Assembly (NCBI RefSeq): GCF_001429185.1
Contig: NZ_LMIW01000013.1
Coordinates: 62,937-126,936 of the forward strand
Reading direction: 5' to 3'
DNA length: 64,000 nt
From: Terrabacter sp. Root85
GTDB lineage: Bacteria > Actinomycetota > Actinomycetes > Actinomycetales > Dermatophilaceae
Positions 34,307 through 47,562 of this stretch are shown piece by piece. The position numbers were made by a program, and so were the translations under genes. Numbering within the stretch: position 1 is the stretch's first letter; each line of letters opens with the position of its first letter. Below the pieces are notes generated by a model. That model saw only the letters and a program-made list of their open reading frames with translations. It made no database searches and was not told where the DNA came from.

Positions 34307-35545
34307 ATGTCCACACAGGAAGCGGTGCGCCACGTCGAGGGCGAGGTCCGTGAGCTGATCCGTCGCTCGGGTCTCGATCCCGCACATGACTCCAAGGCCG
34401 TACGCCGTCTCGTCCAGGACGCCGTGCAGGACTACGACGAGCGCTCCCTGCACGGGGGTCTGCCGACGCTCGGAGACCAGCGACTCGCCGTTCACTCGAT
34501 CCTCGCCGTCGTCGCCGGCTACGGTTCGCTCCAGCAGTACTTCGACGACGCCGCCGTCGAGGAGATCTGGATCAACGAGCCCTCGCGCGTCTTCGTGGCC
34601 CGCGGCGGGATCGCCGAGCTGACCCCCACGATCCTGACGGCCGACGACGTGCGCGACCTCGTCGAGAGGATGCTCAAGAGCAGCGGCCGGCGCGTCGACC
34701 TCAGCAGTCCCTTCGTCGACGCGACGCTCGCCGACGGCTCGCGGCTCCACGTCGTCATCCCCGACATCAGCAGGGCGCACTGGCAGGTCAACATCCGCAA
34801 GTTCGTCGTCAAGGCCGACCACCTCGACGACCTCGTCCGGCTCGGCACGATGCCCCGACAGGCGGCGACGTTCCTCGAGGCCGCCGTCGCGAGCGGTCTC
34901 AACGTGCTCGTGGCCGGCGGCACCCAGGCGGGCAAGACGACGCTGCTCAACTGCCTCGCCGCCGCGATCCCGCCCCGCGAGCGCATCGTGACCTGCGAGG
35001 AGGTCTTCGAGCTGAAGATCCCGCAGCGCGACGTGGCCGCCATGCAGTGCCGCCAACCCAGCCTCGAGGGCACGGGCGAGGTCCCGCTGCGCCGCCTCGT
35101 CAAGGAGGCGCTGCGGATGCGGCCGTCGCGCATCATCGTCGGCGAGGTGCGGCAGGAGGAGAGCCTCGACCTGCTCATCGCCCTGAACAGCGGCGTACCG
35201 GGCATGTGCACCGTGCACGCCAACAGCGCCCGCGAGGCCGTCACGAAGATGTGCACGCTGCCTCTGCTCGCCGGGGAGAACGTCTCGAGCCGCTTCGTCG
35301 TTCCGACGGTGGCGGCGGCGGTCGACGTCGTCGTCCACGTCGCCCTCGAGCGCGACGGCGTCCGACGGGTCCGAGAGATCGTTGCCGTTCCCGGACGGGC
35401 CGAGGGGGACGTCATCGAGATCGCCGACCTCTTCGTCACGCGCGAGGGTGCCCTGCGACGGGCCGACGGGTTCCCGCCGCACCGGGAGGCCTTCGAGCGG
35501 GCGGGTTACGACGTGGCGGCCCTTCTCGGTCAGGCGGACTCGTGA
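34307..35545 (+). CDS. tadA: Tad/Flp pilus secretion ATPase (TadA/CpaF)
   Basis: A 412-residue secretion ATPase. Walker A is GGTQAGKTT (204-212), followed by the Asp box TCEEVFELKIPQ and the Walker B/His region SRIIVGEVRQEESLDLL and GMCTVHANSAREAV. It powers assembly of Flp-type pili. ATG follows CAGGGGAA. A GTGA overlap couples it to tadB. An EccC-like gene is divergent. No TadZ/CpaE-like gene is upstream within the window, where one is common. Confidence 0.92.
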   Translation: MSTQEAVRHVEGEVRELIRRSGLDPAHDSKAVRRLVQDAVQDYDERSLHGGLPTLGDQRLAVHSILAVVAGYGSLQQYFDDAAVEEIWINEPSRVFVARGGIAELTPTILTADDVRDLVERMLKSSGRRVDLSSPFVDATLADGSRLHVVIPDISRAHWQVNIRKFVVKADHLDDLVRLGTMPRQAATFLEAAVASGLNVLVAGGTQAGKTTLLNCLAAAIPPRERIVTCEEVFELKIPQRDVAAMQCRQPSLEGTGEVPLRRLVKEALRMRPSRIIVGEVRQEESLDLLIALNSGVPGMCTVHANSAREAVTKMCTLPLLAGENVSSRFVVPTVAAAVDVVVHVALERDGVRRVREIVAVPGRAEGDVIEIADLFVTREGALRRADGFPPHREAFERAGYDVAALLGQADS

Positions 35546-36411
35546 TCTCGCCGCTGGCGATCGGCCTGTTGCTCGGCGTCGGCGTCTTCTTCGTCTACTG
35601 GTCGTCCTGGCCCCAGGAGCCCGCCCGCGAGAAGGTCGACAGGGGCGGCTTCATGGTCGAGCTGCGTGACCACCTCACCCAGGCCGGGTACTCGTCGGTC
35701 ACGCCCGGCAACGTCGTCGCCGGGTCGGTGGTGCTCTTCGTCGTGGCCTTCGTCCTGGTCCTCGCCCTGACGCGCGTCGTCCCGATCTCGTTGTGCTTCA
35801 GCCTCATGGCCGGCGCGATCCCGCTCTCGCTCGTGCGAATGCGAGCGCGCAAGCGCCGCAACAAGCTTCGCGACCTGTGGCCCGACGTCGTCGACAACAT
35901 CACGTCGGGCGTGCGGGCGGGCCTGGCGCTCCCCGAGGCACTGTCGCAGCTCGCCGTCCGCGGTCCGGCCGAGCTGCGTCCGGCCTTCGCCGCGTTCGCG
36001 GAGGACTACCGGACGACAGGGCGTTTCCACGACTGTCTCGACCGGCTCAAGGACCGGCTCAGCGACCCGGTCGGAGACCGCATCGTCGAGTCGCTCCGGA
36101 TCGCCCGCGAGGTGGGTGGCAGCGACCTCGGGAAGCTGCTCCGCACCCTGTCGTCGTTCCTGCGCGAGGATGCCCGCACCCGCTCCGAGCTCGAGACCCG
36201 GCAGAGCTGGACGGTCAACGCAGCCCGTCTCGCTGCCGGCGCCCCGTGGGTCGTCCTCGGGCTGCTCGCCCTCAACGGCAGCTCGCTCGCGGCCTACGCG
36301 TCGCCAACGGGCTGGGCCGTCCTCGCGGTCGGGGCTGCGCTGTGCGTCGTGGCCTACCGGGCCATGGTGTGGATCGGGCGACTCCCCGAGGAAGAGCGGG
36401 TCCTCCGGTGA
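35542..36411 (+). CDS. tadB: Tad pilus inner-membrane platform protein TadB
   Basis: A 289-residue T2SF-type protein with N-terminal helices (residues 3-20 and 55-90), a cytoplasmic domain with DNITSGVRAGLALPEALSQL, and two C-terminal helices. It forms half of the Tad platform. GTG start overlaps the tadA stop, and the tadB TGA overlaps the tadC GTG. Confidence 0.9.
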   Translation: MISPLAIGLLLGVGVFFVYWSSWPQEPAREKVDRGGFMVELRDHLTQAGYSSVTPGNVVAGSVVLFVVAFVLVLALTRVVPISLCFSLMAGAIPLSLVRMRARKRRNKLRDLWPDVVDNITSGVRAGLALPEALSQLAVRGPAELRPAFAAFAEDYRTTGRFHDCLDRLKDRLSDPVGDRIVESLRIAREVGGSDLGKLLRTLSSFLREDARTRSELETRQSWTVNAARLAAGAPWVVLGLLALNGSSLAAYASPTGWAVLAVGAALCVVAYRAMVWIGRLPEEERVLR

Positions 36412-37205
36412 ACGGGCTGGCGGGTCGACTCGGAGAGCTCGTCGCCGACGGGTGGTCGTGGGTCGGCGCGAGCGCGGGCGTGTGCCTCGTCGCGGGCGTC
36501 GCTCTCGTCGTCGCCGGACTGCCGGCGAGCCGCCGCCCGACCCTCGACGACCGCCTGGAGCCCTACCTGCGCGACACGCCCCGCCCGTCGAGTTTGCTCG
36601 CCCGGCCGGCCCCGTCGCGTGGTCCGTTCGGCTTGGGTGAGCTGCTCGCGCCCTACGTGGCCAGGTTGGGGTCCGGGGTGGGCGCGCTCGTCGGCGGCGC
36701 CCCGTCCGTGGCGCGTCGACAGCTCCGCGCGGGGCAGCCCGCGGACGTCGAACGGTTTCGCGCCGAGCAGGTCATGGCCGGGGCAGTCGGGGGACTGGGT
36801 GGTCTCGCCTTCACTGCCGTCGTCGCCGTCGCGCAGCGACGCTTTCCGGTGCCGGTCCTCGTGTCGATGGTGATCGTCGGGGTGCTCGGCGGGATCGCCG
36901 GCCGCGACTACCTCCTCAGCCGTGCCGCGAGCCGGCGCGAGGCCCGCATGCTCACCGAGTTCCCCACCGTCGCAGAGCTGCTCGCCCTTGCCGTCAGCGC
37001 GGGAGAGGGTGCCGTCGGCGCGCTCGAACGCGTCTGCCGCCTGTCCCGCGGAGAGCTCTCCGACGAGCTGCGTCGGTGCCTGGCCGACGCTCGGGCGGGG
37101 GCCAACCTGCCCACGGCACTCCAGGGTCTCGCCGACCGCACCGGGTTGATGAGCCTGACCCGTTTCGTCGACGGCATCGTCGTCGCCGTCGAGCGCGTGC
37201 AATGA
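36408..37205 (+). pseudogene. tadC: TadC 5-prime part, interrupted by the integrative element
   Basis: The first 260 codons of TadC (T2SF-type platform protein), running normally to VVAVER at about 37187-37196, then R-V-Q and a TGA from element DNA. The remaining 65 residues (starting VERGTPLADVL) lie at 47365-47562 in the matching frame after the common GTCGAGCG core. The truncated product lacks the last membrane helices (VPIVFLTLPVTVLFALYPG). Unless the element leaves, TadC should be defective and the pilus not assembled. Confidence 0.9.
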
Positions 37206-37210
37206 GCACC
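37168..37210. other. attL (bacterial left half plus phage-type right half)
   Basis: The tadC side ends ...GTCGTCGCC-GT; after GT the element side runs CGAGCGCGTGCAATGAGCACC. The 8-bp GTCGAGCG at 37188-37195 is repeated in attR. Confidence 0.85.
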
Positions 37211-37215
37211 TCGTC

Positions 37216-37962
37216 TTAGCCAGCGCGTGGCTCTCCCAGAATCATTTCGCTGCGCGCTTGCATCCCGGGGTGAATCGCACGCGACAGTGTCAGCCCTCGA
37301 ATCGCAGTGCCCACGCGCTCGGCCGCCGCGATGAAGGAGAGCGCAGCGGATAGCGATACGTCCGCGCCACCGTGAGTCACGTCGTTGCGGAGCCCGACGA
37401 GGTTCCTGACGACTGGGTTGAACTCGTCAGTCAAACCCTTGTGGCTCAATGCCTCGACGCTCGCGAGGGCCGAACGCCGCTCGCGTGGCGGCACTCCCGC
37501 CTGGGCGGCTCCATCCGAGGCGATCTGTTCGAGGTAACGAAAGGCTGTCAGGACGGCGGCGTTGGGATCGACAATGGCGACCTTCCGTGCCAGTTCGAAT
37601 TCTCGCTCGTTGTTCGTCATCCAACGGATGGCGCGCTCTACCACGGGATTCCCAAGGTCCTCAGCCCTCAGTGAGGGCTCCTTGGCGCCGTTCACCTCTG
37701 CCCCTGCCTCGCTGGCGGAAGGCTCCCCGTCCGACCCGGAGATGGGCTGCAAGGTCTGATCCTCGGCTGCGGCGTCAGCGCTGGCCTCCACCTCGCGAGC
37801 GGCCTTGTCGAAGAAGGTGCCTCCGCCGATGGGCGTGTTCACGTCCTTCAACTGGCCGATCTTCTCTGACACCTGTCTGCGGAAGGCGATGAGCGCTCCG
37901 ACCGCGACTAAGGGCCACGCCAGGGCTTGCAGATATTGCAGCACGAGTTCGGCAACGTCCAT
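37216..37962 (-). CDS. Membrane protein with HEPN-like Rx4H motif
   Basis: A 248-residue protein, not assigned to a named family. An N-terminal membrane helix spans about residues 10-28, a low-complexity acidic region about 60-95, and a helical C-terminal domain follows. The segment LVGLRNDVTHGG contains R-x4-H, the catalytic pattern of HEPN RNases, in a helix pair typical of HEPN/Abi and DUF4145-like folds. Next to the divergent DUF4145 gene. Base composition is lower in G+C than the flanks. Suggested role: membrane-anchored effector of an antiphage or abortive system; this is inference. Confidence 0.6.
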   Translation of the reverse strand: MDVAELVLQYLQALAWPLVAVGALIAFRRQVSEKIGQLKDVNTPIGGGTFFDKAAREVEASADAAAEDQTLQPISGSDGEPSASEAGAEVNGAKEPSLRAEDLGNPVVERAIRWMTNNEREFELARKVAIVDPNAAVLTAFRYLEQIASDGAAQAGVPPRERRSALASVEALSHKGLTDEFNPVVRNLVGLRNDVTHGGADVSLSAALSFIAAAERVGTAIRGLTLSRAIHPGMQARSEMILGEPRAG

Positions 37963-37997
37963 GGCATGAAGGCTATGCGAGGCTAGGCTCCCGCGGC

Positions 37998-38639
37998 ATG
38001 AGTGAAGCAGGGAACTATGTTGCTCCGAGTAGGGGTCTCGAAGCCTTCAATTGCCCGAACTGTGGCGCGTACGCGCATCAGCGCTGGGCAAATCTTGGGC
38101 ACGACAGCGTGGCAGGCTTCCAATCCTTCGAGCAGTGGAGCACGGCACGATGCATGGCTTGCAGCAGGAGGTCGGTGTGGTCGGCCTTAAGGCTGGTCGA
38201 TCCTCCGGCGCGGATCGGGCCCAGACCCCACAGCGACATGCCCGACGAGGTCGTCAACCTATACAACGAGGCGCGCGAGGTGGCGGGGCTCTCACCGCGC
38301 AGCGCCGCGGCGCTGCTTCGCCTTGCGCTGGAAACGCTGGTGAACAGTCTTGTCGAGTCGAGTCAGAGCCTCCATCAGAAGATCGGCGTGCTTGTCTCCC
38401 GAGGCTTGGAGACGCAGGTGCAGCAGGCGATGGACATCGTGCGCGTGGGCGGCAACAACGGGGTTCATCCGGGGCAGATCGAACTCGCCGAGGGCGGGGA
38501 ACTGCTAGAGGCGATGTTCGAGCTCTTGAATCTGATCGTCGAACAGGTGATTGCCCGACCGAAGCGGCTCGCCTCCCTATATGAGGCGCTCCCTGCGGGC
38601 GCGCGGGAGGCCATCAGCCGACGCGACGGCGCAGGGTGA
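37998..38639 (+). CDS. DUF4145 domain protein with N-terminal zinc ribbon
   Basis: A 213-residue protein. Zinc-ribbon cysteines CPNC (about 19-22) and CMAC (about 52-55) precede the DUF4145 helices: MPDEVVNLYNEAREVAGL, SPRSAAALLRLALETLVN and VRVGGNNGVHPG. DUF4145 proteins are found in defence and toxin-like loci and relate to HEPN-type folds. Start ATG is 36 bases from the divergent membrane protein. Probably acts with that protein. Confidence 0.75.
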   Translation: MSEAGNYVAPSRGLEAFNCPNCGAYAHQRWANLGHDSVAGFQSFEQWSTARCMACSRRSVWSALRLVDPPARIGPRPHSDMPDEVVNLYNEAREVAGLSPRSAAALLRLALETLVNSLVESSQSLHQKIGVLVSRGLETQVQQAMDIVRVGGNNGVHPGQIELAEGGELLEAMFELLNLIVEQVIARPKRLASLYEALPAGAREAISRRDGAG

Positions 38640-38663
38640 GAACGACGGGTGGGAGGGAAGTAG

Positions 38664-39053
38664 ATGCGACACGAAGTCCCGTTGACGCGGATCACTTGGG
38701 AGGTGTTGAGCAGCTTCGCCGAGGCGACGCGGGGAGACCCGCGAACCGACTCGCTCACTCGGTCAGCACTGCGTCAGGTCGAGGCCGGGGAGAAGGTCCA
38801 CGTCCCGGCCGACAACGACTTCGCGGTCTTCGTGAAACTCGACACGGGCGAGGCGCTCACCCTGAAGGCCGTCGCCTCCACCTTGCTTACCGACTGGATG
38901 GCGACGTTGCCCGAAGACCGCGCGCTGTGGACCGAGCAGGATCGCGTGAGCGCGCAGTGCCTGGAGATGGACATGGCCGAGATGGTCGTGCACGCGACCG
39001 GCGTCCAGGCAGAGCCGAAGACGAAGCGAGGATGGTTCCGCAGGCGGACCTAG
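38664..39053 (+). CDS. Hypothetical protein
   Basis: A 129-residue soluble acidic protein of no family that I recognise. GGGAGGGAAG just before the ATG is a good ribosome site. It follows the DUF4145 gene by 24 bases and ends before a perfect terminator, so it may be the third member of the DUF4145 unit. Confidence 0.6.
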   Translation: MRHEVPLTRITWEVLSSFAEATRGDPRTDSLTRSALRQVEAGEKVHVPADNDFAVFVKLDTGEALTLKAVASTLLTDWMATLPEDRALWTEQDRVSAQCLEMDMAEMVVHATGVQAEPKTKRGWFRRRT

Positions 39054-39065
39054 GCAGAATGGCGA

Positions 39066-39095
39066 AAGGCCCCCACCTCGCGAGGTGGGGGCCTT
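39066..39095. terminator. Perfect 30-bp palindrome terminator
   Basis: AAGGCCCCCACCTCG at 39066-39080 is followed directly by its exact complement. It ends the plus-strand unit and faces the minus-strand genes of the element; usable in both directions. Confidence 0.85.
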
Positions 39096-39099
39096 CGTG

Positions 39100-39354
39100 T
39101 CAGCCGTCGCGGCCTCGGAGTCGTTCTGCCATCTCGATCAGTGGGGCCTCGGCTTCCGTGACTGCGGTCAGCAAGTCCGCCTCCGTGGAGAAGAACCCGC
39201 CGCCGCCACCCCCGAATCGGATGTGCCCGACTGCCCAGCCGTCCTCATCCGGGACGAAGGTGATTCCGATGCCGTGGGCGTGCCCGATGGTGAGGAGGCG
39301 ACCGACGACCTCCAGTGCCTCAGGTTCGATGACTTGTGCTGTCGTGTTCGTCAT
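39100..39354 (-). CDS. Small hypothetical protein
   Basis: An 84-residue protein with an unusual six-glycine run between two halves (HIRFGGGGGGFFSTEAD). No family recognised. Last gene of the minus-strand phage-type set. Confidence 0.5.
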   Translation of the reverse strand: MTNTTAQVIEPEALEVVGRLLTIGHAHGIGITFVPDEDGWAVGHIRFGGGGGGFFSTEADLLTAVTEAEAPLIEMAERLRGRDG

Positions 39355-39380
39355 GTGTGCGATCTTCGCAGCCGCCCCCG

Positions 39381-39662
39381 TCAGGGGCGGGGGCGCGTCG
39401 CCGATGTCGTCGCCGGAACGCCGAGACGCGCCGCCAGTGCAGGCCCGACGTACGGCGAGCGCGGGCGCGTCCGGCGCTCCTCGTCAGCGAGGACGCGCGC
39501 GCGGAGGGCAGCCGCGGCGGCGGCGTGCTCGGCGCCCCTCCCGGAGGAGGCGTAGAACGAGCGCCACGCCTTCCCCGGCGGCGCCGGACGAGGCGGCTCC
39601 GCGCGCCACACGGCGAATGGATCGGACGGTTGCGAGTAGCGGTCAGGGTTCCACGTGTAGAT
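39381..39662 (-). CDS. Small hypothetical protein, apparently ATC start
   Basis: The reading frame carries a plausible 93-residue protein (YTWNPDRYSQPSDPFAVWR at its start). A perfect AGGAGG at 39669-39674 is six bases upstream of ATC at 39660-39662, with no ATG, GTG or TTG at that spacing. An ATG upstream (39761) extends through an overlapped gene and is less likely. Function unknown; basic, with an Ala-rich helix. Confidence 0.45.
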   Translation of the reverse strand: MYTWNPDRYSQPSDPFAVWRAEPPRPAPPGKAWRSFYASSGRGAEHAAAAAALRARVLADEERRTRPRSPYVGPALAARLGVPATTSATRPRP

Positions 39663-39700
39663 GACGAGCCTCCTCGGACAGGGGCGGACAGGCGGACAGG

Positions 39701-39880
39701 TCAGGCGAGGCGGGTGTCGCGTGGCAGCGACACGAGGACAGACCACGAGACATCGCCACAAGGGAGCGACGGGCCAGCGCCGAGAGCGACAGCAGTTGAG
39801 ACAGGCGCCGTGTCGAGCCCGACGAGGTGCGTGACGAGGAGCGTGTCCGGGGCGACAGGCTCGGCGTCAGTCGTCGTCAT
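39701..39880 (-). CDS. Small hypothetical protein (59 residues)
   Basis: Starts MTTTDAEPVAPDTLLV and ends LPRDTRLA. Its ATG overlaps the end of the upstream gene by 14 bases and its stop is followed closely by the AGGAGG of the next gene. The tight packing supports it as real. Unknown function. Confidence 0.55.
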   Translation of the reverse strand: MTTTDAEPVAPDTLLVTHLVGLDTAPVSTAVALGAGPSLPCGDVSWSVLVSLPRDTRLA

Positions 39881-40175
39881 CCGGCACGGTCACGAGGTCG
39901 TCAGGGTGGACAGCTACGACGGCGCCGAGGTCGTCCAATCTCCGCGGGACGGACAGCGCCCACGAGAACGCGCGCGGCGAGGTGACGACGGGCTCGCCTG
40001 CCTCCAGCGCGGCGAGGCGCTCGTGCGGGAGACAGTGCTCCTCGGCGTCAGGGTCGAGCGGCGGGAGGTCGCAGACACAGAATCCCGCCATCTTGCGGGC
40101 GTTCGCGAGGAGGACGGCGTACGCGCCCGGGACGAGGACGCCGACGCGACGCCGGGATGAGGAGCGGCGTCCCAT
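39867..40175 (-). CDS. Hypothetical protein
   Basis: A 102-residue protein with a basic N-terminus (MGRRSSSRRR) and an acidic end. A loose Cys pair (FCVCDLPPLD) is present. Its ATG overlaps the last base of the terminase-like gene, so it is coupled to it. Not recognised. Confidence 0.6.
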   Translation of the reverse strand: MGRRSSSRRRVGVLVPGAYAVLLANARKMAGFCVCDLPPLDPDAEEHCLPHERLAALEAGEPVVTSPRAFSWALSVPRRLDDLGAVVAVHPDDLVTVPDDDD

Positions 40176-40585
40176 CAGCGCCCCCAACGCGCAGCGGCAG
40201 CCTTGCGCGCCGCGGTCGAGGTCGTCGCCGAGCCGATGCCAGAGCGGCCCGTCGCGAGGTTGACCACGGCGCCCTCCTCGTCGGGCTCGGAGAGGTCGAG
40301 GCGCCGGAGGGTGAGGGCCAGGAGCGCTCGCGTCTGGCGTAGTTCCGGGATCAGCGGGTTGACGATGGTGCCGCCGTGAGAGCCGCGCGCCGTCAGGGGC
40401 GCCGCGGCGAGCGCGGCCTCCAGTCGGTCGATGTGGTCGGCGAGGCGGGCAGCGTCCTCCAGCCATCGGAGGTCTCGCGCGTCAGGCTCCACGCCGAGGG
40501 CGTCGAAGTCCGCGAGGATGCCGCGCCAGAGGCGCTCTCCCGGCGTGCAGAGCGCCTCCGGGAGGTCGTGGTCGTGTTCGGTCAT
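40175..40585 (-). CDS. Phage terminase small-subunit-like protein
   Basis: A 136-residue protein whose pattern resembles the P27-type terminase small subunits: a basic/Leu-rich start (GERLWRGILADFD), a helical DLRWLEDAARLADHIDRLEAAL block, GSHGGTIVNPLIPELRQTRALL, LRRLDLS, and a basic tail. Such proteins bind pac/cos DNA and direct packaging. In the element it is the only packaging-type gene. Start ATG follows AAAGGGG. Assignment is from pattern only. Confidence 0.65.
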   Translation of the reverse strand: MTEHDHDLPEALCTPGERLWRGILADFDALGVEPDARDLRWLEDAARLADHIDRLEAALAAAPLTARGSHGGTIVNPLIPELRQTRALLALTLRRLDLSEPDEEGAVVNLATGRSGIGSATTSTAARKAAAARWGR

Positions 40586-40949
40586 GAGGGCCCCTTTCAG
40601 GGTCAGGACAGGCCCCTCGGGAGGTTCCCGGGGAGCCCCTTCGAGAGTTCGGGGGACTTCGTTCGCTGGACTTGCTGCTATAGGAACCGCGCCCAGAGGA
40701 GGGCGGGGGAGGGGGTGCCTCCCCCACGGGGTTGAGAGCGGTGCGACGAGCGCCGCGAGCAGCACGCGACGTGCGTGTGAGAGTCGAAGCTCTCAGTGCG
40801 GCGAGCGCGTAGCAGGGCAGCGACGACGAGCGCGACGAGCAGCGCCAGAGCCAGCCAGGGCGAGGCCAGGACGCGACGAGGGCCCGGCCCGTCGCCGGTC
40901 AGGCGAGCAGGGTCGAGCCCTCGTCGTCAGCGCGTCATGCGCTCAGTCG
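40586..40949 (-). other. Gene-poor gap with hairpins and a broken membrane ORF
   Basis: It contains hairpins at 40705-40725 (7-bp stem GGGGGAG) and 40779-40796 (6-bp stem). On the minus strand an in-frame ATG at 40938 reads M-T-R then TGA, and the same frame continues open with a clear membrane helix (WLALALLVALVVAALL). No normal start lies after the stop, so it is either a decayed holin-like gene or not translated. Confidence 0.4.
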
Positions 40950-41840
40950 TCAGGCGTTCGCGGCCTTGCGCGTCGAGCGCTTCGCCGGAGCAGGAGCAGG
41001 AGCCTCCTCCTCGGGCGCCTCCAGCATCGGCAGGGAGCCGAACGCGGGCAGCGTGTCGCGGATGTCGTGGGCGTGCAGGGCGTAGACGTACCGTGCCGCC
41101 TCGGTCACCCGTGCCACCTTTCCGCGGACCCGGGCGAGCGTCCGCTCGGCCTCCGCCAGTTCCTCGGCGAGCGCGGCCTCGCCAGCCTCCGCGGTCGCCG
41201 TGACGGCGCCGGACTGGACGAGCGCGCCCGCCGCCATCGACAGGTCGAGGACAGCCTCGCGCAGCGGGCCCGCGAACGTGCGAGCGCGGACACGAGCCGC
41301 CGCCATGCGAGCGCGGATGCCAGCCTCCTCCACGGCGTGCTCGGCGGCGATGCGCTTCACGGTGTCGTCGGACAGGTCGCCGGTCGCGAGCATCTCCTCG
41401 GAGAACCGAGCGTCGAGCGAACGGATGCCCGCGAGGTCGTCCTCCGCCAGCCGGTAGTCCCGGACAGCGGCGAGCCACGAGTCCGAGAGGCGCGTGTGCT
41501 CGGCGGCGAGGAGGCGGAGGTCGGCGTCCTCCGGGACGAGGCCCTCGTCCATGAGGCGTGGGAGGTCCGGGATGGCGCCCGCCGTCGGCTGGTCGAGCGG
41601 GTCGGCGAAGACGCTCGGGACGCCGGAGTGGGCGCCGGGAATGGGCACCGGGCGGTGCTCGTCCCTCAGCGCCTCCATGCGAGCGACGGCGGAAGCGATG
41701 GCGGCGGAGTGGTCGAGCGCCGGAGCGGGCTCGGCAGCGGGCGCCTCGGTGCCGCGAGCGGTCGCCGTCACGAGGCGCGCGTGCTCCACGATGTCCTCGG
41801 TCGAGGCGTTGTCGGGCAGGGTCGGGGTCGAGTGAGACAT
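40950..41840 (-). CDS. Hypothetical helical protein
   Basis: A 296-residue, mostly helical, acidic protein with an Ala/Pro/Lys-rich C-terminal tail (APAPAKRSTRKAANA). Its middle (VKRIAAEHAVEEAGIRARM, RTLARVRGKVARVTEA) looks coiled-coil. Not recognised. GAAGGA lies before the ATG. It may be a scaffold- or head-associated-like phage protein or a regulator; neither is shown. Confidence 0.6.
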   Translation of the reverse strand: MSHSTPTLPDNASTEDIVEHARLVTATARGTEAPAAEPAPALDHSAAIASAVARMEALRDEHRPVPIPGAHSGVPSVFADPLDQPTAGAIPDLPRLMDEGLVPEDADLRLLAAEHTRLSDSWLAAVRDYRLAEDDLAGIRSLDARFSEEMLATGDLSDDTVKRIAAEHAVEEAGIRARMAAARVRARTFAGPLREAVLDLSMAAGALVQSGAVTATAEAGEAALAEELAEAERTLARVRGKVARVTEAARYVYALHAHDIRDTLPAFGSLPMLEAPEEEAPAPAPAKRSTRKAANA

Positions 41841-41867
41841 GAGTGTGTGGTCCTTCGGGGTGAGAGG

Positions 41868-42212
41868 TCAGGCGGAGAGGGCGGAGCGGGCGGACATGCG
41901 GGCCGCGTGGCGAGCGGCGTTGCGCCGGAGGTCCGACGGGGAGCGGCGTTTGCCGTGCGTGTTCTTCGGGCGGACGGGCGCGTTCGTCATCGCCCACGAC
42001 GACGCGGGCAGCCCGAGCAGGGCGCGCGCCTCCATGAGGTCGAAGAGGCTCGCCGCGGCGTTGTGCTCGGCGAGCGACACGGCGAAGATGCGCGACGCGC
42101 GCTCGCCAGCCACGCCGGAGTCCAGAGACGGGGCGATGTCCTCCCGGGCCAGATCGCCGGAGTAGACGAGCGACAGGAGCGGGTTCGCGAGGTCAGCCGT
42201 CAGGGCGCTCAC
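41868..42212 (-). CDS. Hypothetical protein
   Basis: A 114-residue protein with a basic C-terminal tail (RRNAARHAARMSARS). Starts four bases before the end of the upstream gene (ATGA overlap). Unknown family. Confidence 0.6.
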   Translation of the reverse strand: MSALTADLANPLLSLVYSGDLAREDIAPSLDSGVAGERASRIFAVSLAEHNAAASLFDLMEARALLGLPASSWAMTNAPVRPKNTHGKRRSPSDLRRNAARHAARMSARSALSA

Positions 42213-42532
42213 TTCGTGCCCGCCGCCAGTCGAGCGCGGCGAGCAGCCATGCGGGCGGCGAAGGCATCGGCGTCACGAGCGGCAGCGGGCTCCACGGTCA
42301 GCGCCTCCAGTTCGCCGGAGCGCTTCTGCCGGATGAGCGAGCGCAGGATGCCAGCGTGTGACTCCGTGGGGTCGTCGGACAGGTCCAGGCGAATGGACCG
42401 GGGCTCGCCGCCGCGAGGCGTCGCCGTCACGAGGACGGGCCCGCGCGGGATGTCGTCGGGGAGCACGGTCACGGGCGCGGCGTGCGAGGGCGCGTCGCTG
42501 GACGAGCGCCGGGAAAGGATGGTCAGGGACAT
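42209..42532 (-). CDS. Hypothetical protein
   Basis: A 107-residue protein with a beta-rich N-terminus (VLVTATPRGGEPRSIRLDLS) and basic helical end. AAGGAG upstream of the ATG. Coupled with the next gene. Unknown family. Confidence 0.6.
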   Translation of the reverse strand: MSLTILSRRSSSDAPSHAAPVTVLPDDIPRGPVLVTATPRGGEPRSIRLDLSDDPTESHAGILRSLIRQKRSGELEALTVEPAAARDADAFAARMAARRARLAAGTK

Positions 42533-42603
42533 GCGGGAATCTCCTTGTGTAGGAGCGGGATGCGGAAGCCGTCCGCGGCGGTGTGGTCAGGAGGGTGGCG
42601 CGT

Positions 42604-42864
42604 TTACATGCGCGCCGAGCGTCGAGCTGCTTCGTCGGTGCGGCACTCGCGGCAGTAGGTGGCGAAGCCGTCACGGCGCGAGGCGTCGAGGCCGAACGCG
42701 CCCGTCGTCTTCACGGTGCGGCAGCCGGGGCAGCGCTTCGGCGTCCCAGCAAGCCACGCGCGACGCCGAGCGAGGGCAGCGCCCAGCAGGAGGGCGGCGT
42801 CGTCGGAGTCATGCCGAGCAGCCAGCGAAGAGGCCAGCCGCAGAGCCAGAGGCGCGGCGCTCAC
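42604..42864 (-). CDS. Small CxxC zinc-binding protein
   Basis: An 86-residue protein with two CxxC pairs, RCPGC and YCRECR, spaced like the leader of phage HNH/endonuclease VII proteins (CxxC, then phenylalanine-rich turn, then CxxC), but without an HNH core. GTG start overlaps the stop of the 58-residue gene upstream (GTGA). Could be a DNA-binding or decayed nuclease domain. Confidence 0.6.
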   Translation of the reverse strand: MSAAPLALRLASSLAARHDSDDAALLLGAALARRRAWLAGTPKRCPGCRTVKTTGAFGLDASRRDGFATYCRECRTDEAARRSARM

Positions 42865-43037
42865 GGGCGTGCGCTCGGCGCTGGGAAGGGCACGAGGTCG
42901 AGGCCAGCGAATCGGCCGGCCTCGTCCACGAGGCGCACGACGCGGAGGCCCGGGGAGGTCGAGCCGTAGGAGGCAGTCGGGGCCGCGAGAGCGACGACGG
43001 GGGGAGCAGGGGCAGGGGGCAGGGCGGCGAGAGCCAC
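42861..43037 (-). CDS. Small hypothetical protein (58 residues)
   Basis: GTG start with GAAGGA nearby. The sequence begins VALAALPPAPAPPVVAL and ends LVPFPAPSARP, its TGA overlapping the next gene's GTG. Overlap and ribosome site support it. Unknown function. Confidence 0.5.
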   Translation of the reverse strand: MALAALPPAPAPPVVALAAPTASYGSTSPGLRVVRLVDEAGRFAGLDLVPFPAPSARP

Positions 43038-43238
43038 GGGGTCGTCCTTCGGTAGGGGTGATGGCCCAGCCCCGCCCCGTCGCGAAGGACGAGGGCGAGG
43101 GGCGGGACCGGGGAGCCCGCGGGGATCAGTCGCGGGGGTCGAGAGGGGCGCCGCAGGAGAGTCCAGGCGGCACCGAGCAGGGCGGGCGGCGAGGCCCGCG
43201 GGTCACGCGAGGGCGCCGGAGCGGGGCGCGAGGGGGCG
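43038..43238. other. Gap: no convincing gene
   Basis: Very G+C-rich sequence without a supported gene. A long minus-strand reading frame across it (42809-43270) is low-complexity, Pro/Arg-rich and overlaps two better genes. Confidence 0.5.
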
Positions 43239-43365
43239 TGTGTCAGAAACGCGTCACGAACGTGTGCCAACGAGCACTAGACGTTCTTCCTCCTAGAGAG
43301 AGAGCGCCTAGGTAGGTAAAGGAGAGATGCACGTTGGCGCGTCATCGTGACGCGTTTTTGACACA
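43239..43365. repeat. Long inverted repeat, 21-bp arms 85 bp apart
   Basis: Arm 1 is 43239-43259 and arm 2 is 43345-43365; 20 of 21 positions pair. Each arm includes an ACGCGT core. Inner GCCAACG/CGTTGGC at 43266-43272 and 43332-43338 extend the symmetry, and a smaller CCTAG/CTAGG pair is at the middle. It lies in the 358-bp gap between two minus-strand genes. Possible roles: operator pair, replication origin, or RNA hairpin. Confidence 0.75.
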
Positions 43366-43395
43366 GAGCCCGCCCATCCCGGCGCCGCTCCGGCG

Positions 43396-43602
43396 TCAGG
43401 CAGAGCGCCGACGCCGCGCCGGGAGGCTCGTCACGTTCGGCGAACGTTCCGCCGCGCGCGAGCGGGCCTTCGCGGCCTCCTCGCGCTGGAGCATCACGGG
43501 CCGAATCTCGGCCCACATGAGCGCCGCCACGCGGTCGAGCACGTCGGAGAGCATCTCCTCGGGCACGTCGGCGAGGGTCAGGGTCACGGGCAGGTCAGCC
43601 AT
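43396..43602 (-). CDS. Small hypothetical protein
   Basis: A 68-residue protein with an acidic helical start (ADVPEEMLSDVLDRVAALMW) and a basic tail (LPARRRRSA). Unknown family. Located beside the inverted repeat. Confidence 0.55.
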   Translation of the reverse strand: MADLPVTLTLADVPEEMLSDVLDRVAALMWAEIRPVMLQREEAAKARSRAAERSPNVTSLPARRRRSA

Positions 43603-43705
43603 GTTCGGGTGTTCCTCTCTCAGGGTGTTTCAGGTCAGGGCGCCGAGGCCCCGGCGCCGCCCCGTCGAAGGGCAGCGCCGGAGGCTCGGCGGTCGAAGCT
43701 CTCGC

Positions 43706-44635
43706 CTACGCGGCGCGTCGAAGTGGCATCTCCGGCGCCGCCTCGGCGGCATGACGAGCCAGGGCGTCCGCGAGCGTGTCGAGGCCCAGCGCGCGCCGAC
43801 GCGCGTCGGTCGTGACGTACACGGAGCCCCGTCCGCCGCTTGCGCGGCGTCGAGGTCCGATCACGTCATCCGCGACCCGGTAGAAGCCGGTCGCGCCGCC
43901 CACGCGGGGAAGGCAGTCGAGCCCCGCCTCCTCGTCGCCGCCGCCGTCGAGCCAGTCCTCCGGGTCGTCCTCGGCGTACTCGTGCCACTCGCCGAGGACA
44001 GGGCACGCGGCGTACGTGTCGTACAGGGCGCGCGTGCCGATCACGGCGGGCGGCTCCTCGTCGTCGGCGAGCCAGAAGCGCAGCCAAGCGCGAGCGGTCT
44101 CGCCCTCGCGGTGCTTCAGGCTCGCGCGGCTCCGGCGCTTGCGTTCGTCCTCGGGCAGCGGCTCGCGACGCCCACGTGCCACCTTCGGCGGCTCGTACTT
44201 CGTCGCTGCGGTCTTCGCATGGCCCACGACGGCGCGTAAGTAGTCGAGCGCGTCGCGCTCACGCACCCGCGCGCCGAGGGCCCAGAGGGCGGCGTACGTC
44301 TCGGAGTCGCTCGGCGTCGGCGTCGGGAGCGCGCGCAGGCGAGCGAGGAGGACACCCGCCAGCGCGTCGGGTGCGACGCGGAGAGGCGTCTCCTCGCCGG
44401 TCTGGAGGAGCAGTGCTCCGCCCTGTCGGCGGAGGCGATTCCCGGCGTCGCGCAGGGTTGGCGCGAGCCAGCGAGAGGCCAGCACGCGCGGGCCCGGGAG
44501 GTCGAGCGTCTGCGGGTGCTCGTCGCCGTCGAAGGCGTACACCTTGCGCGAGGTCGAGCGGTCTCCGGCGTGTGTGGCGCCGGGTGCGTGGAGCGGTGTT
44601 CGCTGGAGGCGTCGGCCCCAGTCGGTCTCAGTCAT
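43706..44635 (-). CDS. Hypothetical protein, possible replication or DNA-binding role
   Basis: A 309-residue protein, the largest element gene besides the integrase. It contains a basic middle (EDERKRRSRASLKHREGE) and ALYDTYAACPVLGEWHEY, which is faintly like the C-terminal winged-helix of phage and plasmid primases, but the primase and helicase motifs are absent. Not assigned. Confidence 0.6.
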   Translation of the reverse strand: MTETDWGRRLQRTPLHAPGATHAGDRSTSRKVYAFDGDEHPQTLDLPGPRVLASRWLAPTLRDAGNRLRRQGGALLLQTGEETPLRVAPDALAGVLLARLRALPTPTPSDSETYAALWALGARVRERDALDYLRAVVGHAKTAATKYEPPKVARGRREPLPEDERKRRSRASLKHREGETARAWLRFWLADDEEPPAVIGTRALYDTYAACPVLGEWHEYAEDDPEDWLDGGGDEEAGLDCLPRVGGATGFYRVADDVIGPRRRASGGRGSVYVTTDARRRALGLDTLADALARHAAEAAPEMPLRRAA

Positions 44636-44770
44636 CAGGGAATCCGTTCGTTGTCAGGGTGAGGCGCCGCTGGCGGGCGGCGTTGTGTCATGGGCGGGCT
44701 CGGCGGCGTAGGTGTGTGGCGACGCCGCCCCTCCGTCGAGGAGCGGCGCCGCGCACGGCCCGCCAGAGCC

Positions 44771-44908
44771 TCATCCCGCCGCGGAGATCCGCGGAGGCGT
44801 GAGGTGCCCGCCCGCCGCCCGGGCTCGGACCTCGGCGCATGGCAAACCGAGGGAGCCGCACGAGACGACGGGCGGGCGGTCCTCCTCGGGCGACACCTTC
44901 ACGAGCAC
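44771..44908 (-). CDS. Possible small gene (45 residues)
   Basis: GTG start; the sequence begins VLVKVSPEEDRPPVVSCG and ends PPRISAAG. No clear ribosome site. It is the only plausible frame found in the 389-bp gap 44636-45024, which otherwise shows nothing. Confidence 0.25.
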   Translation of the reverse strand: MLVKVSPEEDRPPVVSCGSLGLPCAEVRARAAGGHLTPPRISAAG

Positions 44909-45024
44909 CGAGGAGGAGCAGAGGCCCAGGAACGCGCCACGCGGCGCCCTCCCGGGCGGAGAGGAGGCGCCCAGCCCAGGGCAGGGCGGGGGCGGAATCG
45001 CTTGTCAGACAGGCGCGTACGGCA

Positions 45025-45210
45025 TCAGAGGCCGCGGAGCGTGTCCACGATGTCGAGCGCCTCGCGGGCCTCGGCCAGCGCGATAGCGGCGTCGATGCGG
45101 CGGTTCCGCTCTCGGCGGTTCCACGAGGCGCGGCAGCGGTCCGAGCAGAACCGAGCATCGGAACGCGCGTCGGCGTCAAGGAAGTGACTCGGGTCGTTCT
45201 GGCAGCGCAT
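45025..45210 (-). CDS. Small zinc-ribbon protein
   Basis: A 61-residue protein: MRCQNDPSHFLDADARSDARF then CSDRCRASWNRRERNRR. The cysteines C3, C22 and C26, with H9, could bind zinc. Strong AGGAGGTG upstream. Such small ribbons occur in phages and plasmids next to regulators. Confidence 0.7.
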   Translation of the reverse strand: MRCQNDPSHFLDADARSDARFCSDRCRASWNRRERNRRIDAAIALAEAREALDIVDTLRGL

Positions 45211-45548
45211 GGGCGTTGCACCTCCTCTCGGAGCCGGTCGTTCGGATATCTGCGAAATGAGAAGCGCCCGCGGCGAAGACGCCGGGGGCGCACGGCACAG
45301 GGGGGGTCAAGAAAGGAATCCGCCAGCACCGTGTCAGGTGCTCACGGCCAGATCGTTGGCTACATGAGTAGAGGGCCAGTCGTGAGGTCTGTGCTCACGC
45401 GCCGCACGGGTGGTGCGTGGTTGCCACAAGAGGAATGGGCCGACGCAGTGCCGTCTGCTCATCGTTCGGGCGGCGTTTACACGAAGCTCCGACGCGGGGA
45501 CGCCAGAGGCCCCCACCCGTGGAAGGGCGAGGGCCTCGGTAGTTGTCG
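45211..45548. other. Gap holding a possible 62-residue plus-strand ORF
   Basis: An ATG at 45364 opens a 62-codon frame to 45552 (MSRGPVVRSVLTRR...GGVYTKLRRGDARGPHP), without a clear ribosome site. It runs against the integrase-side genes. It might be a recombination directionality factor, but the size alone does not show this. A hairpin (45506-45537) lies within. Confidence 0.25.
45506..45537 (-). terminator. Hairpin after the Zn-ribbon gene
   Basis: A 7-bp stem GAGGCCC/GGGCCTC lies just after the 45549 stop on the minus strand. Confidence 0.45.
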
Positions 45549-45719
45549 CTAGCGCGTGTGGTCGCCGGGCAAGGCGGAGCGTGTCTCCTCGCCGCAGTCC
45601 GGCGACTCGCAGCGGGTCTCCCAGACAGTCACGACGCCCGTCTCTCGATGATCGAGCGTGCGAGTCATGACCGCGGGACCGAGGCACTTGGCGCAGAGGA
45701 CGCGCTCCTGCTTGCTCAT
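45549..45719 (-). CDS. Small two-CxxC zinc protein (56 residues)
   Basis: MSKQERVLCAKCLGPAV... followed by a second cysteine pair C-E-S-P-D-C. A typical phage-type zinc ribbon of 56 residues. It directly follows the integrase gene (35 bases). Ribosome site weak. Confidence 0.6.
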   Translation of the reverse strand: MSKQERVLCAKCLGPAVMTRTLDHRETGVVTVWETRCESPDCGEETRSALPGDHTR

Positions 45720-45753
45720 GCGCTCAGGCTAGGCGGGGCGACTCGGCAGCGTG

Positions 45754-47343
45754 TCAGGCGCGCCAGTGGAACTTCAGCCGCTCCGCGCCGCGGAACGCGG
45801 AGTTCCCGCCGCTGTGCCTGCCCTTGTTGACGACGACACGGACGAGGAACAGGTCGAGGAACTCGCGCCACTCCTCGACGGACCACGAGGCCCAGGGGCC
45901 CTCTAGGAGCGGGTCGCCGCTCGGGTCGTCGGCAGAGGCGAGAAGGTCGAGGAAGGGCACGACCGGCGCCGACGGGGCGAGCGATTCGAGCGTCGCAGCT
46001 GCGCCCTCCACTCGCGCGGACAGGTTGCGCACCTGACGGGCGTAGCGCTCGGCACCGTTCGCGCCGTCGAACAGGCCCGCAGCGCGGTCGTCGTCCAGCC
46101 GGTCCAGCGCCGCCAGCGCCTCCGCTCGCGCCCGCTGCGCGGCGCTACGCGCCTCGATGTCGGCGCTCGCGGTCGTCTTCGCGGCGAACCGCTCCGACGC
46201 CGCCGACAGAAGCGCGGCGTCCGCCTCGTCCTCCGGGTCGAGGTGGGAGAGACGCCGCAGCACCTCGCCGGTCACGTACGCCTCTGAGTGGCGGACTGCG
46301 ACCGCCACGCCGTCGCATCCGGTCTGCCCTCGACGGGCCTTCATGCAGCGGTAGGCACCGCCTCCGGGCGCCGAGAGGCGCCGGTCGATGCCCATGCGCG
46401 AGCCACAGGCGCACTCCATGAGGAAGCCGCCGAAGAGAGAGGGCGCCGTGCCGCGTCCGCGGACGGGCGCTCGGGAGTCGAGGACGCGCTGGAGGGCGTG
46501 CCACGCCTCCGGCGAGACAATGCCCTCCCACGGGCGGATGAGCGAGCCATCTTCGGCGAGCGCGATGCGCTTCACGTTCGGACCTGACTCCTTGCCGTCA
46601 CGGGCCTCGGGCATGTAGCCCGCGAGTTGCGGCGAGCGGAGCCAGCGCATGAGGGTCGAGGTGCCCCACTCGGCGCCGTTGATCGTGCGGACCTCCCGGG
46701 CGTTGAGGTCGCGGACGACGGAGCGGACCGACTCGCCCTCCATGACCCGGGCGATGATCTTGCGGGCCTCGCCCGCGGTCTCCAGATCAGGCACGAGACG
46801 CCGGACTACGAGGCGCCCGTCGAGGACGCTCTCGGCGCGCATCCCGAAGGGCGGGCGTCCTCCGGCGTGCGAGCCTGCCTCGCGCAGCAGGGCCTTGCTC
46901 GCCTTCGTGCGCGTCGAGATGCTCGCCGACTCCTGCTCGGCCATCGCCGCGAAGAGGGCGAAGATGCCGCGGCCCATCGGCGAGCCAGTGTCGAGGAAGG
47001 GCTCGTTCACGGAGAGGAGGCTCGCGCCGTTCTCGGCGAGTTCGCCGACGAGGCGGACCGCCTCGATGACGCCGCGCCGGGTGAGTCGGTCGAGTCGGTA
47101 GACGACGAGAACGGAAGCCTCGCCGCGCCGGATGGCATCGAGAGCGGCGTCCAGCCCGGGGCGAGCCGCTCGGGGGTCGTAGCCGCTCGCGCCCACGTCC
47201 TCGAAGTGGTCCACGAACGTCCAGCCGCGCGCCTCCACGAGCGCCTTCGTCTTGCGCCTCTGCGCTTCCGGCGACGCGGCGGAGTCGTCTTCGCGGGCCT
47301 TGCTCTGGCGGGCGTACGTGATGGCGCGGGTCGGGGTCGGCAT
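45754..47343 (-). CDS. Large serine recombinase (integrase)
   Basis: A 529-residue large serine integrase. The N-terminal resolvase domain has the nucleophile in YARQS (S14), EAQRRKTKAL, VYRLDRLTRR and the AEQESASISTRTK helix. A recombinase domain (AGYMPEARDG, RPWEGIVS) and zinc ribbon (C-A-C-G-S...C-M-K-A...C) follow, with a coiled coil near 410-470. The ATG is 24 bp from the attR core. It integrates the element into tadC; excision should need a directionality factor not identified here. Confidence 0.93.
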   Translation of the reverse strand: MPTPTRAITYARQSKAREDDSAASPEAQRRKTKALVEARGWTFVDHFEDVGASGYDPRAARPGLDAALDAIRRGEASVLVVYRLDRLTRRGVIEAVRLVGELAENGASLLSVNEPFLDTGSPMGRGIFALFAAMAEQESASISTRTKASKALLREAGSHAGGRPPFGMRAESVLDGRLVVRRLVPDLETAGEARKIIARVMEGESVRSVVRDLNAREVRTINGAEWGTSTLMRWLRSPQLAGYMPEARDGKESGPNVKRIALAEDGSLIRPWEGIVSPEAWHALQRVLDSRAPVRGRGTAPSLFGGFLMECACGSRMGIDRRLSAPGGGAYRCMKARRGQTGCDGVAVAVRHSEAYVTGEVLRRLSHLDPEDEADAALLSAASERFAAKTTASADIEARSAAQRARAEALAALDRLDDDRAAGLFDGANGAERYARQVRNLSARVEGAAATLESLAPSAPVVPFLDLLASADDPSGDPLLEGPWASWSVEEWREFLDLFLVRVVVNKGRHSGGNSAFRGAERLKFHWRA

Positions 47344-47386
47344 GGTGCACAAGGTACGCGCTCGGTCGAGCGTGGGACGCCGCTCG
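47344..47386. other. attR (element left half plus bacterial right half)
   Basis: The element side GGTGCACAAGGTACGCGCTCG precedes GT at 47365-47366, and the tadC coding sequence CGAGCGTGGGACGCC follows. Joining the two element halves gives an attP in which 17 of 21 paired positions are complementary around the central GT. Confidence 0.85.
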
Positions 47387-47562
47387 CCGACGTGCTCCGG
47401 GCCCAGGCGCAGGACGTCCGCGAGGACGGGCGACGCACCCTCATGGAGGAGGGCGGGAAGAAGGAGATCTACATGATGGTCCCCATCGTCTTCCTCACCC
47501 TGCCCGTGACCGTGCTTTTCGCGCTCTACCCCGGCCTCAGCTTCCTCCACCTCAAGCTCTGA
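47365..47562 (+). pseudogene. tadC: TadC 3-prime part, separated by the element
   Basis: Codons VERGTPLADVLRAQAQ through FALYPGLSFLHLKL, the C-terminal tail and last helix of TadC. No start of its own. Joined in frame to the 5-prime part at 36408-37187 it makes a 325-residue TadC of normal length. Confidence 0.9.

Follow-up and report, generated by a model that had tools for sequence, protein, structure and literature searches.

A putative satellite-like element with a serine integrase in tadC, and the tad pilus locus as a recurrent landing site in an actinobacterial family

Phage-inducible chromosomal islands (PICIs) are typically around 10 kb long with defence cargo, and their integrases are usually of the tyrosine type. 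Small size, an integrase and a small terminase subunit (TerS) are features of PICIs and capsid-forming PICIs (cf-PICIs; see PMC6092414), and the anti-phage, satellite-like island PLE 1 of Vibrio is described as being moved by a large serine recombinase (PMC6002521). According to PMC10083194, competence genes are enriched among the targets of large serine recombinases, and one target can be shared by recombinases that are distant relatives of each other. Many small prophage-like elements of actinobacteria are supposed to be possible satellites in PMC10023795. Here we analyse a stretch of 64,000 nucleotides of Terrabacter sp. Root85 (the window; contig NZ_LMIW01000013.1, positions 62,937 to 126,936), in which the pilus gene tadC is split by an element of 10,177 bp with an integrase gene at its end. 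It is very probable that a large serine integrase put this phage-satellite-like element into tadC by recombining attP with attB at a GT crossover, and that the tad locus is a recurrent site for such events. On comparative sequence grounds, this reading is carried by the precise split of tadC, the uninterrupted tadC of relatives, the presence in a different family of a related integrase at exactly this codon, and an attP built as an inverted repeat.

The split tadC and its attachment sites

The first-pass annotation proposed that a serine-integrase element splits tadC, the reading frame breaking at 37188 and resuming in frame at 47365. This was confirmed by the split gene with the integrase beside its junction: joining position 37187 to position 47365 preserves the frame, which then reads VVAVERGTPLADVL and gives the predicted 325-residue TadC (260 plus 65 residues), and an uninterrupted TadC of the same 325 residues is present in another genome of the genus (G173). 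The 5' part (36408..37187, + strand, 260 codons) covers, with its read-on tail, positions 3-73 of the 125 of the T2SSF profile, and the 3' part (47365..47562, + strand, 65 codons and stop) covers positions 72-123 of 125, alone below the cut-off. The element between them, delimited at 37188..47364 by the frame join, the empty sites and the att comparison, has exactly the length first reported (47365-37188 = 10,177). Comparison of the junctions places attL at 37168..37209, with the crossover GT at 37188-37189, and attR at 47345..47386, with GT at 47365-47366. The octamer GTCGAGCG does stand at both 37188 and 47365, and outside it the flanking sequence diverges immediately on both sides. As the + strand of this G+C-rich window holds it 27 times, its identity at the two ends says little by itself; the proof of insertion is comparative, consisting of one gene that continues in frame and of an empty site in relatives.

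Such empty sites are common. Of 186 genomes of the family, 164, own included, gave a match to the 5' part of tadC and 166 to the 3' part. Among the best 29 non-self loci of those 164 genomes, 28 are uninterrupted at the site (8/8 within the genus), the sole exception being G178. An intact tadC lacking the octamer in relatives had been named as evidence that would speak against the insertion; GTCGAGCG is present at 22 of the 28 uninterrupted sites and the other six differ within it, but GT is kept in all 28, which fits GT rather than the octamer as the core and leaves the insertion unrefuted.

A second element at the same tadC codon was found in a genome of another family (G228). It is 9,077 bp long, lies within a 2.76 Mb contig and encodes an integrase 48-49% identical to that of the Root85 (source) element. 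In a draw of 396 genomes from the order, this was the one that provided a good relative of the integrase, and among 47 genomes of its own family the integrase was matched only in G228 itself. At its junction GT alone is common to both ends, which fixes the crossover as GT, and the proposal of the octamer as crossover core was rejected on this ground. GT is thus the most likely crossover, and the remaining identity within the 8 bp would reflect a half-site common to attP and attB. Both attP sites, as reconstructed, form inverted repeats with GT at the centre, matching at 16 of 20 positions in the source and 13 of 20 in G228; in the window, palindromic arms reach at least 13 at 0.17% and at least 16 at 0.005% of positions. 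The source centre could be one of a few places within the octamer, but that of G228 had no such freedom. Moreover, the two attP are identical at 28 of 42 positions, and in both elements the integrase ATG lies 21 nt from GT. Short att sites, a dinucleotide crossover and no long direct repeats, all found here, are those of large serine recombinases. The truncated TadC ends V-E-R-V-Q-stop, encoded by the element arm (37188-37205). We also observed that in both elements the attP arm supplies V-E-R-x-Q-stop, so that the truncated protein stops a few codons after the junction.

The exception among the relatives, G178, is a single-contig genome of another genus in which tadC is cut at the same codons. 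There was no tadC 3' part at E 1e-4 and no match to the source integrase within the 38 kb examined, and an integrase-like fragment lies some 80 kb away from the cut. Beside the cut are a protein matching NsnA/PD-T4-2_A (2.4e-83), which we take to be DUF262, and a TerS-like protein (phrog_1496, 1.2e-4) 40% identical to that of G228. We infer that G178 probably holds a decayed relative of the element whose integrase end was lost; by these comparisons, tadC is a repeated integration site, seen in G228 and in this probable decayed copy. An open reading frame (ORF) next to the cut tadC of G178 (L038:13598-14725) consists of many near-identical repeats (LVPDWQRQLFQKP).

Close relatives of the source integrase are scarce in the family (3 of 186 genomes at E 1e-30 or better, self included). 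No close relative was found in viral contigs (none in one search, three at 27-28% identity in another), in phages (27-32% among the matches listed), in plasmids (27-30% among the matches listed) or in the genome_contigs set (one match at 28%). There were 0 matches in 378 genomes of family f19, a set without a positive control, and no viral contig matched the attP pattern. A draw from the class gave an integrase match in 2 of 394 genomes, self included; the candidate from it, G666, was set aside, as its 4.7-kb locus holds no credible tadC match.

The tad locus as a landing site

In Root85 the two genes upstream of tadC are intact, namely tadA (34307..35545, + strand), the pilus ATPase (Pfam T2SSE 1.4e-37; full-length self match), and tadB (35542..36411, + strand; from the ORF list). 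In G173, with its uninterrupted tadC, it is tadA that is split, by another serine-integrase element of ~10.1 kb. A search of 178 family genomes gave 18 with partial or weak tadA matches that were followed up, and in 13 of these (13/178) tadA is broken beside a serine integrase lying within ~110 bp. Both tadA parts were seen at 7 of the 13 loci and the 3' part only at the other 6. The breaks fall near codon 297 (G173, G175, G164 and G045), codons 206-211 (G177, G160, G100 and G099), codon 234 (G139, G147 and G058), codon 84 (G007) and codon 92 (G111); the commonest lie in or by the conserved stretches GGTQAGKTT and VPGMCTVHANS, presumably the Walker A and His-box by name. A tadB match was present at 12 of 13 loci tested for it, the exception being G064.

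No serine integrase was found in the remaining 5 of the 18 (G080, G162, G075, G064 and G123): G080, G162 and G075 have both tadA parts, apart, G064 has the 5' part only, and G123, a candidate break, the 3' part only. The insert of G080 carries a type III restriction-modification system (methyltransferase 3.3e-221). In G162 (L062:849-4842) a 9.4-kb insert with a gene that by eye resembles a tyrosine recombinase breaks tadA at codon 167. The insert in tadA of G099 (G099:C23, ~366446-401203) is by its coordinates of prophage size, ~35 kb, with the serine integrase adjoining the tadA 5' part. The follow-up did not extend to G026, G167, G016, G180, G044, G051, G004 and G156, whose tadA matches are partial, at a contig end, with an internal stop or on a contig other than that of tadC, nor, among the matches listed, to weak best matches in G074, G073, G118, G124, G093 and others near 1e-45.

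To put these counts in proportion, an even draw of 42 family genomes gave 38 matches to PF07508 in 26 genomes, some of them fragments. Five of the 38 lie in tad genes (G000, G100, G045, G007 and G099), each belonging to a different tree lineage; the source genome was put in the draw because of the present finding, and without it the count is 4 of 36. As tadA and tadC make up ~2.2 kb of ~4 Mb, an even spread would give an expectation of ~0.02. Essential genes are unavailable as targets, and thus the true excess at tad must be smaller than the raw ratio.

In a phylogenetic tree, the integrases group by insertion site with support of 0.994-1.0. The source and G228 integrases (48% identical) pair at tadC, and the other groups join G177 with G160 (75%), G175 with G164 (67%), G173 with G045 (73%), and G139 with G147 (84%) and G058 (55%). 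No group is confined to a single genus; G139 and G147 themselves share a genus, and the source and G228 come from two families. Two integrase lineages share tadA codon 297 and three share the region near codon 207. The integrase of G142 shares 52% identity with the codon-297 integrases of G173 and G045, yet belongs to an element outside tad (L041:1550-11480), which argues against a strict rule of one lineage for one site. On these sequence comparisons, serine-integrase elements have landed repeatedly in the tad locus within the family, and most of the sites seen are in tadA. One pilus locus is thus repeatedly broken by different integrases, which raises the question of why Tad is preferred over other dispensable genes.

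Gene content and nature of the element

The integrase (45754..47343, - strand, 529 aa) has a catalytic domain with its serine in the motif YARQS (Resolvase, PF00239, 3.5e-33), a Recombinase domain above the cut-off (PF07508, 4.3e-12) and a match to phrog_95 (4e-86). The TerS-like protein (40175..40585, - strand, 136 aa; phrog_1496, 1.8e-13) aligns with those of G228 and G178 (phmmer 2.8e-6 for the source and G228 pair), and the tadA element of G164 has a TerS of the same PHROG (5e-17). Among 16 ORFs of the element scanned against PHROGs, none matched a large terminase, a portal, a capsid or a tail protein. The element therefore has its own integrase and a small size without a full set of virion genes, as in phage satellites, the TerS-like protein, a candidate for redirecting packaging, being the only virion match, and by this gene content it looks like one. 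The scan for PICI regulator and replication genes gave a weak primase match for a 61-aa protein (0.0028); no PICI regulator or capsid-remodelling gene was identified, the 309-aa protein (43706..44635, - strand) and others having no match in Pfam, PHROGs, NCBIfam or, for the 309-aa protein, PADLOC.

The candidate cargo is a homologue of PD-T7-4 (37998..38639, + strand; PADLOC 3.9e-69, DUF4145 2.8e-13) filling nearly the whole PADLOC profile, with its residues 6-211 on profile positions 3-208 of 211. Upstream of it lies a 248-aa protein (37216..37962, - strand) that resembles DUF4145 below the cut-off (Pfam E 0.019; PADLOC HEC-01A 0.0048). A small protein (42604..42864, - strand) is like endonuclease VII or Lar (phrog_1035, 4.4e-6; phrog_5558, 5.5e-6). 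There was no credible match in Pfam, NCBIfam, PHROGs or PADLOC for a 129-aa protein (38664..39053, + strand) and none for a 296-aa protein (40950..41840, - strand). ORFs were taken from a program-made list and a home-made caller, and small genes may be missed. Among the other elements, that of G173 carries a Pycsar pair (L040:10450-11984; cyclase 1.5e-93 and 2TM effector PycTM 8.8e-20 in PADLOC). One PADLOC scan of 10 proteins of G228, G142, G173 and G178 gave no match; in all, the PADLOC scans covered 30 proteins, part of the ORFs of these elements.

Several observations weigh against a satellite moved by its serine integrase and bearing defence cargo. The zinc ribbon of the integrase (Zn_ribbon_recom) scores 18.2 bits against a Pfam cut-off of 25.3, and attP and attB of the source strain are reconstructions from a draft assembly. 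The TerS assignment depends on distant profile matches, and its counterpart in G228 has no PHROG match and a Pfam score of 17.4 bits, below the cut-off of 24.7. A second match of the PD-T7-4 homologue, to a PHROG called DNA binding protein (phrog_1305, 7e-25), allows it a function outside defence, and no PADLOC defence match was found in 4 ORFs of the G228 element. Neither a helper phage nor a directionality factor was found; the phrog_2 profile, taken as large terminase, was tried for helpers and did not discriminate, with matches in 11 of 14 control genomes and a weak one in the source genome. Moreover, the elements are not uniform: in PHROGs, major head proteins were matched in those of G228 (3.6e-29), G175 (3.9e-34) and G100 (1.3e-99), and that of G228 has a head-tail adaptor as well (3.9e-12). 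As several ORFs of the source element have no identity, the name satellite is given partly by exclusion.

These observations must be set against other explanations. The element could be a full prophage that decayed by losing its virion genes, and indeed TerS and an integrase are phage-type genes, the tadA insert of G099 has the size of a prophage and G178 suggests decay at the very same tadC site. However, the reading frame of the integrase appears undamaged, as do both att sites, the elements of G173 and G228 are similarly small and hold, besides an integrase, cargo or a few genes for head proteins, and the TerS of the G164 element belongs to the same PHROG; we regard a decayed prophage as unlikely, though deserving consideration. 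Rather more improbable is an integrative mobilizable element or plain genomic island, spread by conjugation or transduction, whose TerS-like protein is misnamed. The ORFs without identity would suit it, as would the remoteness of TerS, since a tblastn search of 50,697 phage records gave no match to either the source or the G228 protein; but no relaxase or conjugation protein was found among the 10 ORFs scanned against each of Pfam and NCBIfam, and TerS-like proteins recur in four elements, three at the tadC site and one in tadA. Lastly, a mis-join of two contigs at the octamer, an error that the first-pass annotation had itself raised, is conceivable for a draft genome without reads and an octamer common in its DNA. 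Both junctions lie within a 312-kb contig, the same architecture stands at the identical codon in G228, the single-contig genome G178 is cut at the same codons and a mis-join would not produce an attP symmetry centred on the junction, which leaves this artefact a very slight chance.

Expression of the integrase may also be tied to attP. A -10-like hexamer, TACCTT (47351..47356, - strand), lies 7 nt before the integrase ATG, and in the circular form TTGCAC (37197-37202, - strand), a predicted -35 half, would stand 17 bp upstream of it across attP. TANNNT occurs 6-7 nt before the start of 8 of 16 integrases (the 15 at tad and that of G142) but before only 7 of the 220 remaining starts called in the loci (Fisher p 3e-7, though integrases that are related are not independent), and none of the eight integrases has a Shine-Dalgarno match. 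This pattern points to leaderless mRNAs whose -10 lies in one arm of attP. In the circles of both source and G228 a TTG stands 17 bp upstream across GT and is lost in attR, and linear DNA has TTGNNN-17-TANNNT at two of 351,008 strand positions. On the other side, the background starts came from a caller that rewards Shine-Dalgarno sequences, which lowers the background; the other 8 of 16 integrases have no hexamer, 4 of them having a Shine-Dalgarno; the plain consensus count is equal in circle and attR (6 and 6, 7 and 7); the G178 arm has CGTGAC in place of TTGCAC; and TTG may be just part of the integrase-binding arm. Since G178 lacks TTG, we make no claim of a general -35 across attP, the arms examined being those of the source, G228 and G178. 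That integration swaps the -35 half and so acts as an expression switch is a tentative idea, with chances somewhat short of even; if true, a promoter straddling attP would be a simple self-limiting switch for the integrase.

Proposed mechanism and comparison with known systems

In the mechanism that we propose, a promoter lying across attP would give a leaderless mRNA for the integrase, and the integrase would recombine attP with attB of tadC at GT, swapping the -35 half. The integrated element would inactivate the Tad pilus, and the PD-T7-4 homologue would be anti-phage cargo. A helper phage may excise and package the element, as suggested by the presence of a TerS-like gene without any other recognised virion or packaging gene. 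One could imagine a two-layer anti-phage strategy, in which loss of the Tad pilus, a possible phage receptor, removes rivals in addition to the defence gene, and helper-induced excision restores the pilus gene; we consider this an improbable extension. The data add attB/attP pairs for a divergent clade of serine integrases and point to a group of satellite-like elements with serine integrases in one actinobacterial order, some with defence cargo.

The first-pass annotation knew of no described serine integrase using tadC, and in the literature searched, supplementary tables being outside its scope, we likewise found none, nor any report joining a serine integrase with a tad pilus or tight adherence integration site. 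The large serine recombinases of PMC10083194 resemble the present one as site-specific recombinases in host genes, but the words tad, pilus and pili are absent from the main text of that work, whose supplementary tables may list tad sites. PD-T7-4 is a system selected in E. coli (PMC9519451) with a profile of 211 positions, nearly all of which the homologue covers, whereas the tadC element has a homologue known from sequence alone. Unlike PICIs, the element has a serine integrase and an actinobacterial host. The nearest precedent found is Vibrio PLE 1, which differs in host and genes and whose excision depends on a directionality factor made by the phage (PMC6002521), none being known for the tadC element. 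The type of element is known; what appears to be new within the literature searched is the site and, most of all, the tad hotspot.

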